Positions 10,944 through 18,765 of a DNA stretch of 33,571 nt are shown here, in pieces. The translations under genes and the position numbers were made by a program. How positions within the stretch are numbered: position 1 is the first letter of the stretch; each line of letters starts with the position of its first letter. This stretch comes from Alphaproteobacteria bacterium (GTDB lineage: Bacteria > Pseudomonadota > Alphaproteobacteria > Reyranellales > Reyranellaceae), in assembly GCA_010032545.1 (NCBI GenBank), contig RGPT01000016.1, forward strand, positions 1-33,571, given 5' to 3'. Below the pieces are notes generated by a model. That model did not search any database. It saw only the letters and a list, made by a program, of their open reading frames with translations, and was not told the DNA's origin.

Positions 10944-12073
10944 CGCAGCAACCCTCGCGCCGCCAGATTGCGCATCAGCGCTGTCAGGCCGAAAGTCCAG
11001 GGTGGGACCTTGTCGCAATGGTTCACCCGGTTGGTGAGCGTGCCGAGCTTGGGCGAGCGGATGGAAACGACGTCGCCCACCATGTGCGTGAATCCCGTGC
11101 CACCCGGCGTGCGCGGTTCGGTCGGTGCGAACAGGGTGCCGGTCATCAGCGCCATGCCGTCGGGGTATTGATGCGTCTTCATGGCCTGGGCCACGAGGTC
11201 GGTCGGGTCGCGGCTGATCTTCGACAGATCGCTGGTGCCACGCAGGCGGAACTGGTCGGGGCCGGTCACTTCCAGCTCGACCTTGGCCTGGCGGACGTCG
11301 TCCAGGGAGAATGTACGATCGAACAGGCGGACGAAGGGGCCGAGCGCGCACGAAGCAGTGTTGTCCTTGGCGATGCCGAGCAGCAGGGCGCTGCGTCCTT
11401 CGATGTCGCGCAGGTTGACGTCGTTGCCGAGCGTGGCGCCCACGATCGCGCCTTTGGCGTTCACGATCAGCGTTACTTCCGGCTCCGGATTGTTCCAGTC
11501 CGAGTCCGGTCGGATGCCGATCTCGGCGCCGTAGCCGACCGCTGCCATCGGCGGCGCCTTGGTGAAGATCTCGGCATAGGGGCCGATGCCGACTTCGAGG
11601 TAAGGCGACCAGGCGCCGCGCGCCATCAGCGACTTCTTGAGCGCCTCGGCTTCGGCCGAGCCCGGCTTGATGGTGGTGACGTCGGCGCCGATGATCGAAT
11701 TGAGCTCGCCGCGCACCGTCTCGGCCCGTGCCGGATCGCCCTTGGCATGTTCCTCGATCAGCCGCTCGAGCAGGCTGACGGCAAAGGTGACTCCGGCCGC
11801 CTTGATCGCCTGCAGGTCGACCGGCGCCAGCAGACCGGAGACGATTTCCTCCAGCGAACCGATGCGTTCGCCCTTGGCCCCGGCAAGCGCTACGGGATCG
11901 TCTGCGTTGCAGAGGTCGGCCATCGTGGCTGCGACAACCGTGATATCGAAGACCCCGTCCGACCGCACCGAAACGACGCTCGGGCCTGCATTTGGGCCAT
12001 TTCTCCAAACCCGGCCGACCAGGCTTCCGGCGGTGCCGTCTTCGGGAAGAATCTCGCTCGACAAACCTGCCAC
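10940..12073 (-). CDS. Fumarylacetoacetate hydrolase family protein (possible 2-keto-3-deoxy-sugar-acid dehydratase)
   Basis: FAH-fold metal enzyme of 377 residues. Metal and active-site elements are visible in WNNPEPEVTLIVN (Glu-x-Glu) and GATLGNDVNLRDIEGRS (Asp). The long N-terminal part (LLAPVDLQAIKAAGVTFAVS) and C-terminal HMVGDVVSIRSPKLGTL are as in the roughly 390-residue subgroup that includes 2-keto-3-deoxy-D-arabonate dehydratases. It is divergent from a DapA-family gene 74 bp away, a pairing that fits sugar-acid or keto-acid catabolism. That pathway is inferred from family and context only. ATG 12073 is the first start giving conserved sequence (MAGLSSEILPEDGTAGSLVG). Confidence 0.8.
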   Translation of the reverse strand: MAGLSSEILPEDGTAGSLVGRVWRNGPNAGPSVVSVRSDGVFDITVVAATMADLCNADDPVALAGAKGERIGSLEEIVSGLLAPVDLQAIKAAGVTFAVSLLERLIEEHAKGDPARAETVRGELNSIIGADVTTIKPGSAEAEALKKSLMARGAWSPYLEVGIGPYAEIFTKAPPMAAVGYGAEIGIRPDSDWNNPEPEVTLIVNAKGAIVGATLGNDVNLRDIEGRSALLLGIAKDNTASCALGPFVRLFDRTFSLDDVRQAKVELEVTGPDQFRLRGTSDLSKISRDPTDLVAQAMKTHQYPDGMALMTGTLFAPTEPRTPGGTGFTHMVGDVVSIRSPKLGTLTNRVNHCDKVPPWTFGLTALMRNLAARGLLR

Positions 12074-12147
12074 TGGACGTCTCCGGCGCTTCGTTGCAGA
12101 AAAGGCGCGCCACTTCCACGCTATTCCCTAAGGGGGGAAATCAAATC

Positions 12148-13089
12148 ATGGCCGCTCAGCGGATCAAAGGTGTTCTTTCACCCGTCGTCACACCCTTCAA
12201 GCGCGATCTGTCGCCCGATGTCGGCCGATTCATCGCCCACTGCAAGTGGCTGCTGAGCCAGGATTGCGGGCTTGCCGTGTTCGGCACGAATTCAGAGGCC
12301 AATTCGATGTCGGCTGACGAGCGCATGGGCCTGCTCGAAGCCGCCGTTTCGGCCGGCGTGCCGACGGCGCGCATGATGCCAGGCACGGGCGCCTGCTCGA
12401 TCAACGAGGCGGCCAAGGTGAGCGCGCATGCGACCAAGCTCGGCGTGTCGGGCGTTCTGATGCTGCCGCCCTTCTACTACAAGGGCGTTCCGGAGGAGGG
12501 GCTGTTCCGCTTCTTCTCGGAGGTGGTGCAGCGCGTCGGTGACGACCGGCTGCGCGTCTATCTCTATCATATCCCGCCCGTGTCGGCGGTGCCGATCACG
12601 CACAAGCTGGTCGAGCGCCTGATGAAGGCCTATCCGAAGCAGATCGCCGGCATGAAGGATTCGTCCGACGACTGGCCGCATACCAAGAGCATGATCGACG
12701 CCTTCGCCAAGGACGGCTTCGATGTCTTCTCCGGCAACGAAAAGCCTTTGATCGAGAACGTCAAGTCGGGCGGCGCGGGGTGCATCAGCGCCACGGCCAA
12801 TATCAACCCGGGCAAGATCGCCGAGACCTACAAGAAGTACGCGACGCCCGAGGGCGAGAAGCTGCAGGCCTGGATCAACGAGGTGCGCGGCGTCATGCAG
12901 GGCTACGTGATGATCCCCGGTCTGAAGTATTGCATCGCGCACTACGGCGCCGACCCCGCCTGGGGCCCGGTCCGTCCGCCACTGGTCGAGATCGACGAGA
13001 AGGTCGGCCGCGAGATGATCGCCAAGCTCGACGGGCTGGGTTTCACCATGCCTGGGCTCAAGCAGGCGATGGCGGTCGCGGCAGAGTGA
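12148..13089 (+). CDS. Dihydrodipicolinate synthase / N-acetylneuraminate lyase family protein
   Basis: TIM-barrel class I aldolase/dehydratase, 313 residues, cytosolic. The Schiff-base lysine is K170 in IAGMKDSSDD and the family tyrosine is Y140 in VYLYHIPP. The substrate carboxylate loop reads FGTNSEANS instead of GTTGE, which argues against a true lysine-pathway DapA and for a catabolic keto-acid lyase or dehydratase. A strong AGGGGGGAA site (12131-12139) precedes ATG 12148. It is divergent from the FAH-family gene with a shared 74-bp intergenic region, so the two are probably co-regulated. Exact substrate unknown. Confidence 0.85.
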   Translation: MAAQRIKGVLSPVVTPFKRDLSPDVGRFIAHCKWLLSQDCGLAVFGTNSEANSMSADERMGLLEAAVSAGVPTARMMPGTGACSINEAAKVSAHATKLGVSGVLMLPPFYYKGVPEEGLFRFFSEVVQRVGDDRLRVYLYHIPPVSAVPITHKLVERLMKAYPKQIAGMKDSSDDWPHTKSMIDAFAKDGFDVFSGNEKPLIENVKSGGAGCISATANINPGKIAETYKKYATPEGEKLQAWINEVRGVMQGYVMIPGLKYCIAHYGADPAWGPVRPPLVEIDEKVGREMIAKLDGLGFTMPGLKQAMAVAAE

Positions 13090-13100
13090 CGGCAGCCGCA

Positions 13101-13130
13101 TTGACAGCGATGAGGCGGTAGTCTTATAAA
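13101..13130 (+). promoter_or_regulatory. Sigma-70-type promoter ahead of the leader/GNAT operon
   Basis: A perfect TTGACA (13101-13106) is followed after 18 bp by TATAAA (13125-13130). It is among the best promoter matches seen in the window. Transcription would start around 13136-13138, at or next to the second ATG of the leader reading frame (13137), so the leader would be essentially leaderless. Confidence 0.6.
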
Positions 13131-13187
13131 ATGAACATGCGCACGACCCTGATCCAGAACGGTTGGTATTTTACGCCCCTTACATAG
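13131..13187 (+). CDS. Putative leader peptide with consecutive Trp-Tyr-Phe codons
   Basis: An 18-codon frame, MNMRTTLIQNGWYFTPLT, directly after the promoter, ending at TAG 13185-13187. Translation could begin at ATG 13131 or, if the transcript is leaderless, at ATG 13137. Three aromatic codons in a row (13164-13172) followed by an intrinsic terminator 26 bp downstream is the layout of ribosome-mediated attenuators such as the trp leaders of Rhizobiales. That the peptide is made, and that it senses aromatic amino-acid supply, is inferred. It could be a chance frame. Confidence 0.4.
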   Translation: MNMRTTLIQNGWYFTPLT

Positions 13188-13212
13188 GCGGTGCGAAGGG
13201 TCATGACTCAAC

Positions 13213-13245
13213 GAAGCCGCCGCATCCCGGCGGCTTCTGTGTTTC
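13213..13245 (+). terminator. Intrinsic terminator / attenuator hairpin
   Basis: A perfect 10-bp inverted repeat, GAAGCCGCCG (13213-13222) and CGGCGGCTTC (13228-13237), with a 5-base loop, followed by TGTGTTTCT. The U-run is imperfect. A competing pairing is possible: GGCGG (13187-13191) with CCGCC (13217-13221) would break the hairpin. GGCGG lies in the loop of another possible stem, CCCTT (13177-13181) with AAGGG (13196-13200). The position, between the leader frame and the GNAT start 56 bp downstream, fits an attenuator; it may otherwise simply end transcription from the DapA-family gene. Confidence 0.6.
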
Positions 13246-13292
13246 TGGAATAGGCCTCCGGGCCGCGGCGGAGCCGCAAACCGGAGGACGAT

Positions 13293-13754
13293 ATGTCGAT
13301 CATCGAAGCAGAGTTGGAACCGCCGGCGCCGCCGTTGCACATCCGTGTGCGGCTGGCCGGACCACGCGATCTCGAAGACCTTTGCGATCTGCTGGACGAC
13401 CGAGAACATGCACGCGAGCAGGTGCTGACCTGGCTTGAAACACCCGGCATGACCCTACTGGTCGCGCAGAGCGAGGTGGGGGTGCTGGGCGTGGCCGTTC
13501 TCGTGACGCGGCTGGTGCCGCTGCAAGGAGCGGGTGCGCATAAGGTCATCGAGGTCGACAATCTCGTGGTCCGCGCCGACCATCGCGGCCGTCGTATCGG
13601 CCGGCGCCTGCTTGCCGCCGCCGTCGAATGGTCGCGCCAGCGTCGCGCCGTCCAGGTCGAGGCCATCGTCGGTGACGTCAATCGCGGTGGCCGGCGATTC
13701 TACGAGAGCTTCGGCTTCGCTTCGGTCAACGATCGGCTGGTCCTGGCGGCATAA
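13293..13754 (+). CDS. GNAT family N-acetyltransferase (first of a coupled pair)
   Basis: Acetyl-CoA-dependent N-acyltransferase of 153 residues. The beta4 strand and pyrophosphate loop are VIEVDNLVVRADHRGRRIG, with R-G-x-x-I-G binding acetyl-CoA. The C-terminal RRFYESFGF is the usual alpha4 tyrosine segment. GGAGG (13282-13286) precedes ATG 13293. Its TAA overlaps the start of the next GNAT gene (TAATG). Acceptor substrate unknown. It follows the promoter, leader frame and terminator at 13101-13245, so its expression may be controlled by attenuation. Confidence 0.85.
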   Translation: MSIIEAELEPPAPPLHIRVRLAGPRDLEDLCDLLDDREHAREQVLTWLETPGMTLLVAQSEVGVLGVAVLVTRLVPLQGAGAHKVIEVDNLVVRADHRGRRIGRRLLAAAVEWSRQRRAVQVEAIVGDVNRGGRRFYESFGFASVNDRLVLAA

Positions 13755-14230
13755 TGTCGACCGACGTGCGCCAGGCGACCCTGCACGACTACCGGGCGCT
13801 CTGCGCCCTGTTCGAAGAGCTGGACGAATTCCACCGCCGGGCGCGGCCGGACTTCTTCCGGCCGTTCGAGGGGCCGGCGCGGAACTGGGCCCAGGTTGGG
13901 CAGTGGCTGGCTGGTCCCGACTCGACGATACTGGTGGCCGAGGATGGAGCCGAGGTGATCGGCCTCGTATTGCTGCTGCCGCGGCTGCCGTCGACGTTCG
14001 CCGGCGCTGTGCCGCGCAGGGTCGTGGTGATCGACTACCTTGTGGTACGCGCCGACCGCCGCGACCGGCGGATCGGCCGGAAGCTGGTGACGGCCTCGAT
14101 GGAATGGGCCCGCGGGCAGGGCGCAAGTCATGTCGAACTGGGGGGCCACGCCATCAATCGTCAAGCGCTCAGATTTTACGAGCGTATTGGCTTCGATGTG
14201 TCCGTGCATTGGCTGAGCCAGGCCACTTAG
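13754..14230 (+). CDS. GNAT family N-acetyltransferase (second of a coupled pair)
   Basis: Acetyl-CoA-dependent N-acyltransferase of 158 residues. It starts MSTDVRQATLHDYRALCALF; the cofactor loop is VVIDYLVVRADRRDRRIGRK and the C-terminal helix is QALRFYERIGF. In the loop the usual R-G is R-D, a small departure from R-x-x-G-x-G/A. It overlaps the upstream GNAT by one base, so the two are translated together, perhaps forming a heteromer or arising by duplication. The two are similar in layout but clearly diverged. Substrate unknown. Confidence 0.85.
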   Translation: MSTDVRQATLHDYRALCALFEELDEFHRRARPDFFRPFEGPARNWAQVGQWLAGPDSTILVAEDGAEVIGLVLLLPRLPSTFAGAVPRRVVVIDYLVVRADRRDRRIGRKLVTASMEWARGQGASHVELGGHAINRQALRFYERIGFDVSVHWLSQAT

Positions 14231-17700: not shown

Positions 17701-18765
17701 ATGCCGGCTCTTTCTCCCCGAATCCACGAGGCGCCCGACGATCTGCTCGCCGCCATCGACTACTGCTACGAGCAGGGCTGGACCGACGGCCTGCCGGTCG
17801 TGCCGCCTGAAGTCAATCGGGTCAAGACCATGCTGGCGGCCGACATCCGGCCGGCGGAGACGACGATCTCGCATCATCCGGCGACGGGCCTCGACCTCTC
17901 GCTGCACGCTGCGGCGGTCAATGCGGTAATGGCGGGCTGCCTGCCCGAACATTTTCCGGTGCTGGTCGCGGCCTTCGAGGCCATGGACCGTGCGGACTTC
18001 AATTTTCACGGCTCGACCGCCAGCACAGGCGGTTCGGCGCCGTTGCTGGTCGTGAGCGGTCCGTATGCCGACGAGATCGGTATGAACGCCGACGTAAACC
18101 TGTTCGGGCCCGGCAATCGCGCCAATGCGACAATCGGACGGGCCGTGCGGTTGATCCTGCGTAACGTCTTCCAGATGATCCCCGGCATCTCCGACAAATC
18201 GACCCAGGGCAACCCGGGCAAGTACAGCTTCTGCATTGCCGAGCGCGCGCGCGGCAATCCGTGGCCGCTGCTTTGCGAGGCACAAGGCTACGCCAAAGGA
18301 ACGTCCAGCGTCACCGCTTTCGCCGGCGGTGGCTTCTGCAACGTCGAGAACCACGGCGGCAAGACGCCGGAGCAGATCCTGGGCTCGGTCGCCGACGCCA
18401 TGGCCAACTACGGCTGCATCACGCTCGGTCAGAGCGTCGTGATCCTGGCACCTGAGCACATGGGCATCGTGGGCGGTGCCGGCTGGACGCGCGAACAGGC
18501 ACAGAATTTCCTCTTCACGCATGCCAAGCGTTCGGTCCAGGGCATGGAAAGCGTCGGCAAGTACCGCGACCGGGAGTACGACGCCCAGCACGGCGACGGC
18601 GCGTCGGCGCTGCTCGAGCCGGGGTTCGTGCACCGCGGCCTCTCGCCCGACGACATCCTGATCACGATGGGCGGCGGTGATGCCGGCGGCCACTCCTGCT
18701 TTATTCCGTCATGGAGCCGCGGCCGTGGTTCGATCATGCAGCATGCCGCCATCAGGAGGAGTTGA
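17701..18765 (+). CDS. UGSC-associated conserved protein (large partner)
   Basis: Protein of 354 residues of unknown biochemical function, of a type I recall as typically encoded beside UGSC proteins. Recognisable conserved elements are GWTDGLPVVPPE near residue 30, HAAAVNAVMAGCLPEHFPV, the block GPGNRANATIGRAVRLILRN, then GNPGKYSFCIAERARGNPW. No signal peptide, membrane helix or known cofactor motif is seen; several Cys are scattered (YCYEQ, AGC, FCIAE, FCNVE, YGCI). It starts 3 bp after the HD gene and its stop is 4 bp before the UGSC ATG. That is tight coupling, consistent with the two forming a complex. The family match is from memory of its motifs. Confidence 0.75.
   Translation: MPALSPRIHEAPDDLLAAIDYCYEQGWTDGLPVVPPEVNRVKTMLAADIRPAETTISHHPATGLDLSLHAAAVNAVMAGCLPEHFPVLVAAFEAMDRADFNFHGSTASTGGSAPLLVVSGPYADEIGMNADVNLFGPGNRANATIGRAVRLILRNVFQMIPGISDKSTQGNPGKYSFCIAERARGNPWPLLCEAQGYAKGTSSVTAFAGGGFCNVENHGGKTPEQILGSVADAMANYGCITLGQSVVILAPEHMGIVGGAGWTREQAQNFLFTHAKRSVQGMESVGKYRDREYDAQHGDGASALLEPGFVHRGLSPDDILITMGGGDAGGHSCFIPSWSRGRGSIMQHAAIRRS

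Follow-up and report, generated by a model that had tools for sequence, protein, structure and literature searches.

Sequence comparison suggests that two adjacent GNAT acetyltransferase genes in Reyranella are preceded by a ribosome-mediated attenuator that reads the charging of aromatic tRNAs. The genes lie in a 33,571-nucleotide stretch of contig RGPT01000016.1, here called the window. We put the probability of this reading at roughly 0.78; the response to aromatic amino acids is a prediction. The parts of the leader, their order and their conservation are evident from the compared sequences (Table 1). An aromatic attenuator before a GNAT pair had been proposed in the first-pass annotation of this DNA, and the comparison supports it, as both the leader layout and the aromatic codons are kept before GNAT genes. 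The shortage sensed is most likely that of charged aromatic tRNA, tyrosine in particular.

Table 1. Features of the predicted attenuator and the genes behind it (window coordinates)
Feature	Position	Strand	Basis
Promoter TTGACA-N18-TATAAA	13101..13130	+	TTGACA in 34/34 genus relatives; alignment conservation begins there
Leader ORF MRTTLIQNGWYFTPLT, predicted leaderless	13137..13187	+	ATG, 16 codons, WYFT and TAG in all 34 relatives recovered by DNA similarity
Regulatory codons Trp-Tyr-Phe (TGG TAT TTT)	13164..13172	+	TGG 34, TAT 22/TAC 12, TTT 34 of 34
Strand 1 (CGCCCCU)	13174..13180	+	predicted by folds to pair with 13186-13193, C13189 bulged; paired in 93.7% of cells of the genus alignment (common register)
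Strand 2 (GGCGGU)	13187..13192	+	pairs with strand 1 or 3 in folds; shuffle control not passed in the genus
Small hairpin GGGTCATGACTC inside the 2:3 loop	13198..13209	+	predicted in the 2:3 fold; sequence varies between lineages
Strand 3 GAAGCCGCCG, 5' arm of terminator hairpin	13213..13222	+	sequence, folds, genus alignment
Strand 4 CGGCGGCTTC, 3' arm of terminator hairpin	13228..13237	+	10 bp; nine of ten pairs in 34/34
Second hairpin CCTCCGG/CCGGAGG, inner stem GCGGC/GCCGC	13255..13287	+	contains GNAT 1 Shine-Dalgarno; six outer and four inner pairs in 34/34
GNAT acetyltransferase 1 (153 aa)	13293..13754	+	PF00583, 3.4e-14; AlphaFold2 mean pLDDT 88.4; GNAT folds in PDB
GNAT acetyltransferase 2 (158 aa)	13754..14230	+	PF00583, 2.2e-17; start overlaps GNAT 1 stop

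The promoter is present as first annotated, with its hexamers at 13101-13106 and 13125-13130 and an N18 spacer, and its TTGACA is retained throughout the genus. Measured from the first T of TTGACA, the leader ATG is 36 nucleotides away in 31 of the 34 genus relatives, 35 in two and 34 in one. An automated promoter scan did not list this promoter because the rule of the scan accepts only −10 boxes with T as their sixth base. Two ATG codons follow TATAAA, at 13131 and 13137. The small frame, described earlier as having 18 codons, stands, but its start does not: the leader very probably begins at 13137 and has 16 codons, ending at the TAG of 13185-13187, because an ATG is found at 13137 in 34/34 relatives, whereas that at 13131 is not kept and was rejected. 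The ATG at 13137 sits 6 nt past the −10 box, which suggests that the transcript probably starts at the AUG itself and that the message is leaderless. The proposal that transcription begins at about the ATG, as in rhizobial trp leaders, thereby gains support from the comparison for 13137, as a prediction, and not for 13131. Relative to the leader start, T occupies position −12 in 59, A position −11 in 60 and C position −1 in 63 of 68 leader loci. Inclusion in this 68-locus set (60 distinct ORFs) required W at codon 10, TAC or TAT, TTTA, a TTGAC box and a length of 16 codons exactly; W-Y-F in 60/60 and the fixed length therefore follow from the filter and were not used as evidence. None of the Rfam leader and riboswitch families searched (Trp_leader, T-box and others) gave a gathering-score match in the window or in seven related loci. 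Elsewhere in the window (18263-18360), ARAGORN reported a tRNA of uncertain type whose anticodon would have four bases (gcga); the match is probably false.

The decisive evidence against chance is the conservation of the interval within one genus. A DNA search matched it in 34 of 61 genomes, all belonging to a single genus (34 of its 37 genomes) that is presumably Reyranella in the GTDB sense. Identity among these relatives, the query genome aside, is 80-95%, and conservation of the leader is high throughout its length. The 34 leaders were recovered by DNA similarity, not via their codons, and codons 10-13 nevertheless encode W, Y, F and T in every one of them; the WYFT segment, the three codons behind it and the stop are invariant. 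Codons 2 to 9 are variable, with 8, 6, 4, 2, 5, 6, 3 and 2 different residues, respectively. The consecutive Trp-Tyr-Phe codons noted in the first-pass annotation are thus confirmed, and the check that it had proposed, namely their conservation where the hairpin occurs, came out in its favour. Moreover, the leader lies directly upstream of an orthologous GNAT gene in 34 of the 37 genomes, the other three having neither. GNAT 1 has an orthologue with E <= 1.1e-41 in the same 34 genomes and a weak GNAT match or none in the remaining three; therefore, leader and gene appear to have been gained or lost together. A second GNAT match directly follows the first in at least 19 of the 34. Together with the leader-blind test described below, the conservation in the genus rules out chance or artefact as the explanation. 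The gene ending just upstream of the leader promoter (11992-13089) belongs to the dihydrodipicolinate-synthase family (PF00701, E 5.4e-38), and the genus alignment suggests that this neighbour has been retained in some relatives and not in others.

The two presumed target proteins are 40% identical to each other. As to their substrate, Pfam, NCBIfam, a PDB sequence search and Foldseek returned only general GNAT matches. Enzymes that acetylate polyamines, aminoglycosides and tRNA are among the solved folds nearest to GNAT 1, all of them too distant for a substrate to be named, and the weak similarity to aminoglycoside and streptothricin acetyltransferases is far below family cut-offs.

In the RNA, the two arms of the predicted terminator hairpin, GAAGCCGCCG and CGGCGGCTTC, enclose the loop CATCC and form ten perfect pairs, as had been noted, and nine of these are kept in all genus relatives. 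The T-rich tail behind it (13238-13245, TGTGTTTC) is a weak T-tract in both the window and the genus. Strong T-tracts follow the terminator in L241, L242, L257 and L274 of Rhodobacteraceae, a family in which one terminator reads GACCGCC-GCAGA-GGCGGTC-TTTTTGTTT; a T-tract is absent from the Pseudorhodobacter-type leaders. Against 200 shuffles, the fold of the 162-nt leader has z = −2.99, and 5 terminator-like sites occur in 3 kb where 1.9 are expected, an excess that is weak taken alone.

Besides the terminator, folding predicts competing stems. In the upstream one, CGCC-CCU (13174-13180) pairs with AGG-c-GGUG (13186-13193), and relatives have equivalents. The sequences of this 1:2 stem differ by lineage: CGCC-CCU/AGG-c-GGYG, CGCUGC/GCGGCG, CGUCGCC/GGCGGCG, CACUGC/GCGGUG and ACCAAC-GCC/GGC-g-GUUGGU. 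Of the two mutually exclusive pairings put forward in the first-pass annotation, GGCGG (13187-13191) with CCGCC (13217-13221) exists in the window and recurs in most lineages, exceeding shuffles in only part of them; CCCTT (13177-13181) with AAGGG (13196-13200) can likewise be drawn in the window, but as a conserved pairing it was rejected, other clades having CTGCTG or TCGCCA at that place. Antiterminator and terminator are both drawable in most lineages folded. When the RNA from behind a Phe-stalled ribosome to the end of strand 3 was folded, 2:3 formed in 68/68 cases, a count that is partly built in, as strand 3 was located by CCGCC and many leaders came from a scan demanding TAGGCGG. The 2:3 energies are about −14 to −21 kcal/mol in the 16 leaders printed.

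A control free of the CCGCC bias took strand 3 as the 5' arm of the terminator and shuffled strand 2; 2:3 then beat 95% of shuffles in six of ten leaders from Rhodobacteraceae (mean z −2.04), in two of five from family f94 (mean z −1.36) and in none of 19 distinct genus leaders (mean z −1.45). Covariation in the genus alignment, which had been suggested as a check, was not above shuffles, as the pairs are too constant to covary; support for the stems comes from other lineages. Swapping arms between lineages left 2:3 unchanged (−12.37 for both native and swapped arms), and for 1:2 the gain was small (−11.54 versus −9.72). Of 68 leaders folded without translation, only 32 are dominated by 1:2. 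The 2:3 segment was also aligned across lineages with MAFFT; one alignment (A2) misplaced strand 2, and neither entered the counts. Equilibrium folds of the full leader in six genus members retain 3:4 even with the ribosome on Phe; therefore, antitermination would have to be kinetic. On balance, the evidence from the codons is strong, and that for the antiterminator is moderate.

The hairpin over the GNAT 1 Shine-Dalgarno sequence deserves separate mention. Accessibility of this sequence is 0.0 in three folds of the window leader, and hairpins of other sequence stand at the same position in L110, L147, L191 and L202. The locked ribosome-binding site, kept in 34/34 genus relatives and paralleled in these four leaders, makes a second, translational step plausible in the genus. 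A relay with capture of the anti-Shine-Dalgarno strand by strand 4, considered by eye, is no more than an idea, as folds gave no consistent change.

We infer the following course of events from this arrangement. Transcription would start at AUG 13137, and a ribosome would begin on the leaderless message. Were Trp-, Tyr- or Phe-tRNA short, it would stall at codons 10-12, covering strand 1 and freeing strand 2, which would pair with strand 3 (GGCGGU:GCCGCC); the 3:4 terminator would then not form, and the acetyltransferase operon would be transcribed. With charged tRNA plentiful, the ribosome would reach the stop codon and cover strand 2, and 3:4 would terminate transcription. In the genus, the hairpin holding the Shine-Dalgarno sequence may add control at the level of translation.

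A search that made no use of the leader was carried out in Rhodobacteraceae, the family being recognised by DNA polymerase I. An alignment of GNAT enzymes, built from those behind aromatic leaders, was the only query against 118 genomes, and 30 loci were examined for a TTGAC/T box 28-33 nt before an ATG or GTG opening a frame of 8-24 codons, with no requirement on residues. Such a small ORF precedes nine of the 13 strong orthologues (>100 bits) and one of the 17 weaker homologues (L281); one more match, L283, lies within a gene. Of the nine, L262 and L263 (in G467 and G496) were known beforehand from a pattern scan, which leaves 7 of 11 as the new result. L274 was read from further upstream, as its GNAT match begins inside the gene, and L267, L269, L270 and L272 (four of the 13 strong orthologues) had no such small ORF upstream. 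In the pattern scan itself, 394 Rhodobacteraceae gave 21 rows from 20 genomes; three matches, all upstream of GNATs, were judged true after four loci had been read, the rest being judged by their letters only.

The ten leader peptides found in this way contain WYF (in three, of which two share a genus), FYW, FYYY, YYF, YF, FF with a separate Y, or a lone Y (two). Tyr is present in all ten and adjacent aromatic residues in eight. Aromatic residues make up 31 of 157 positions, compared with a background of 5.3% in neighbouring long frames (nominal P 5e-8 and 4e-11, values that ignore relatedness, L263 and L264 being from one genus). Lengths range from 19 codons (L263, L264) through 15 (L266, L268, L271) to 10 in L265 (G190). 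The last is the shortest leader, MINALKIARY, in which the stop directly follows a single Tyr codon and which thus offers the smallest natural test of the codon sensed; the 2:3 complementarity of this leader does not exceed that of shuffles. Upstream of WYF, the N-terminal part of the peptide is unlike between lineages and families. Among all leaders seen, the common residue is Tyr, not the Trp-Tyr-Phe block.

Beyond the genus, the element was sought with the pattern TGGTAYTTYACNN{3,9}TAGGCGGY in 84,980 species genomes. This gave 107 stretches, 80 of which were read fully and the rest assessed via the filter only. Most are Reyranella-like leaders, others being unrelated matches with neither promoter nor leader. 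They include records from the wider family (L110, L147) and Rhodobacteraceae-like ones (L102, L107, L114, L117, L142, L162). In the true leaders read, the Phe codon is TTT, though the pattern permitted TTC. The Rhodobacteraceae-like records are the Pseudorhodobacter-type leaders, which carry a CCTTGC-like strand that could pair with CGCAAGG or with the Shine-Dalgarno AAGG and whose sequence suggests translational rather than transcriptional attenuation. The leader in L107 adjoins a gene that presumably encodes DNA polymerase I.

In family f94, a leader of the same layout and unlike sequence occurs in 7 of 18 genomes. It precedes GNATs in L191 and L202 and a protein of about 90 residues in L192, L203, L204, L205 and L206 (89-93 aa in four); the corresponding G408 ORF in L200 is listed as 116 aa from an upstream GTG. 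The small protein in L192 has a weak match, below cut-off, to the C-terminal domain of tyrosyl-tRNA synthetase (PF22421, E 7.4e-4). Within f94, the leaders before this stand-alone S4-like protein are those of genus g176 (L192:1707-1976; L200:1345-1695, minus strand; L203-L205). Three class-wide scans matched at least 129, 22 and 16 of 385 genomes, respectively, the matches of the first being mostly chance by their letters. In the second and third, eight genomes each were judged true, five from the family of the window and three from f94; the other matches were judged by matched letters only, except one from f92 in the third scan, which lies in apparent coding sequence. The single-contig genome G016 gave one match in the third scan. 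As the true matches are limited to these two families, the distribution of the element is patchy.

Could the nascent peptide, rather than tRNA charging, be what the leader reads? GNAT enzymes often modify antibiotics, and the drug-inducible leader peptides of cat and erm, which depend on a fixed arrest peptide, share with the present leader a short ORF before a possible modifying enzyme. A chain ending in WYF might stall the ribosome on an antibiotic or metabolite and so induce a detoxifying acetyltransferase; the constancy of WYFT through the stop in 34/34 genus leaders and the weak resemblance of the GNAT to aminoglycoside and streptothricin acetyltransferases, far below cut-offs, would fit. 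We nevertheless regard such a switch as distinctly improbable. A conserved arrest sequence near the C-terminus was looked for, and what is constant in Reyranella turned out to be permuted or replaced across Rhodobacteraceae (FYW, FYYY, YYF, YF, lone Y) before orthologous genes, unlike in cat and erm; moreover, the part of the chain that would line the exit tunnel, upstream of WYF, differs between lineages. Permutation of the aromatic run before orthologous genes is expected for reading of charged tRNA, not for a fixed arrest peptide. Because the order varies and the composition is kept, sensing of charged tRNA is favoured.

It seems very improbable that the leader acts chiefly in trans, as a small peptide or terminated sRNA for which the hairpin is simply the terminator, after the manner of peTrpL and rnTrpL of Sinorhizobium. 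That rnTrpL, a leaderless attenuator RNA, also has functions in trans (PMC7298713), that the present leader is highly conserved throughout in the genus and that its antiterminator complementarity there does not exceed shuffles all agree with such a role, but families differ in the N-terminal half of the peptide, and a trans function could coexist with attenuation. Mainly translational control, in which stalling in the leader refolds the RNA and opens the ribosome-binding-site hairpin, termination being minor, is also unlikely in our view. It would account for the Shine-Dalgarno hairpin in 34/34 relatives, for its other-sequence versions in L110, L147, L191 and L202, and for the Pseudorhodobacter-type leaders that lack a T-tract and have CCTT facing the Shine-Dalgarno sequence; however, strong T-tract terminators are present in other Rhodobacteraceae, and Shine-Dalgarno accessibility does not change consistently between stalled and read-through folds.

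Attenuation by charged aromatic tRNA, the reading that we prefer, has close counterparts. The pheA and pheST leaders of E. coli are not leaderless, and their genes, unlike those considered here, act directly in Phe synthesis or charging. What they share with the mechanism proposed is attenuation by the availability of charged tRNA, Phe-tRNA in their case (PMC11802643). The same source describes the leader peptide AroR before aroF of Corynebacterium glutamicum, which has Phe-Tyr-Phe codons (PMC11802643, citing Neshat 2014) and thus likewise a mixture of aromatic codons. AroR, in contrast, controls a biosynthetic DAHP synthase in an actinobacterium, whereas the target here is a GNAT. The likeness extends to the rhizobial trpL/rnTrpL of Sinorhizobium, Agrobacterium and Bradyrhizobium, with a short aromatic-codon ORF and, as predictions in the present leader, mutually exclusive structures and a terminator; according to PMC7298713 and PMC10117765, the trpL RNA of S. 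meliloti starts at the AUG, and the trpL peptides of three species are alike only in their Trp residues. The rhizobial leader has Trp codons and precedes trpE(G), unlike the Trp-Tyr-Phe run before acetyltransferases. As a control for use of the mechanism by this organism, a trp leader was sought before trpE in the genome of the window and not found: the 400 nt upstream hold no short ORF containing WW or a run of three aromatics, and an apparent coding region lies directly before the gene.

The mechanism is of a known kind; in the titles and abstract beginnings of open-licence papers, we encountered neither this codon set nor any indication of an attenuator before a GNAT-type acetyltransferase. 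Formate acetyltransferase (pflB) we take not to be a GNAT. It is named as possibly post-transcriptionally regulated in PMC2659441. The leader would work like a trpL-type attenuator, and we do not claim its membership in a known amino-acid regulon. Genes that make, transport or charge the amino acid sensed were looked for among the targets, which proved to be GNATs, the only other being the S4-like protein of g176 with its match below cut-off; only the leader and, weakly, that f94 protein connect the targets with aromatic amino acids. A broader interpretation, which we offer as doubtful, is a tyrosine-centred aromatic-tRNA attenuator regulon in Alphaproteobacteria whose targets, GNATs and the stand-alone TyrRS-type S4 protein, protect or monitor aromatic tRNA charging, for example through acetylation of mimics of aromatic amino acids, of synthetase inhibitors or of mis-charged products at times when decoding of Tyr, Trp or Phe falters. 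If this were true, the output of an aminoacyl-tRNA sensor would be an enzyme of detoxification or quality control and not biosynthesis.

Biosynthesis and tRNA charging are the textbook targets of amino-acid attenuators. In the present case an equivalent switch, with all three aromatic codons in series in this genus, would control acetyltransferases in several families. The natural variation of the codons (WYF, FYW, FYYY, lone Y) is a ready-made experiment on which tRNA is sensed, and the leader gives these GNAT enzymes a directly testable physiological trigger and hence a lead to their substrate.
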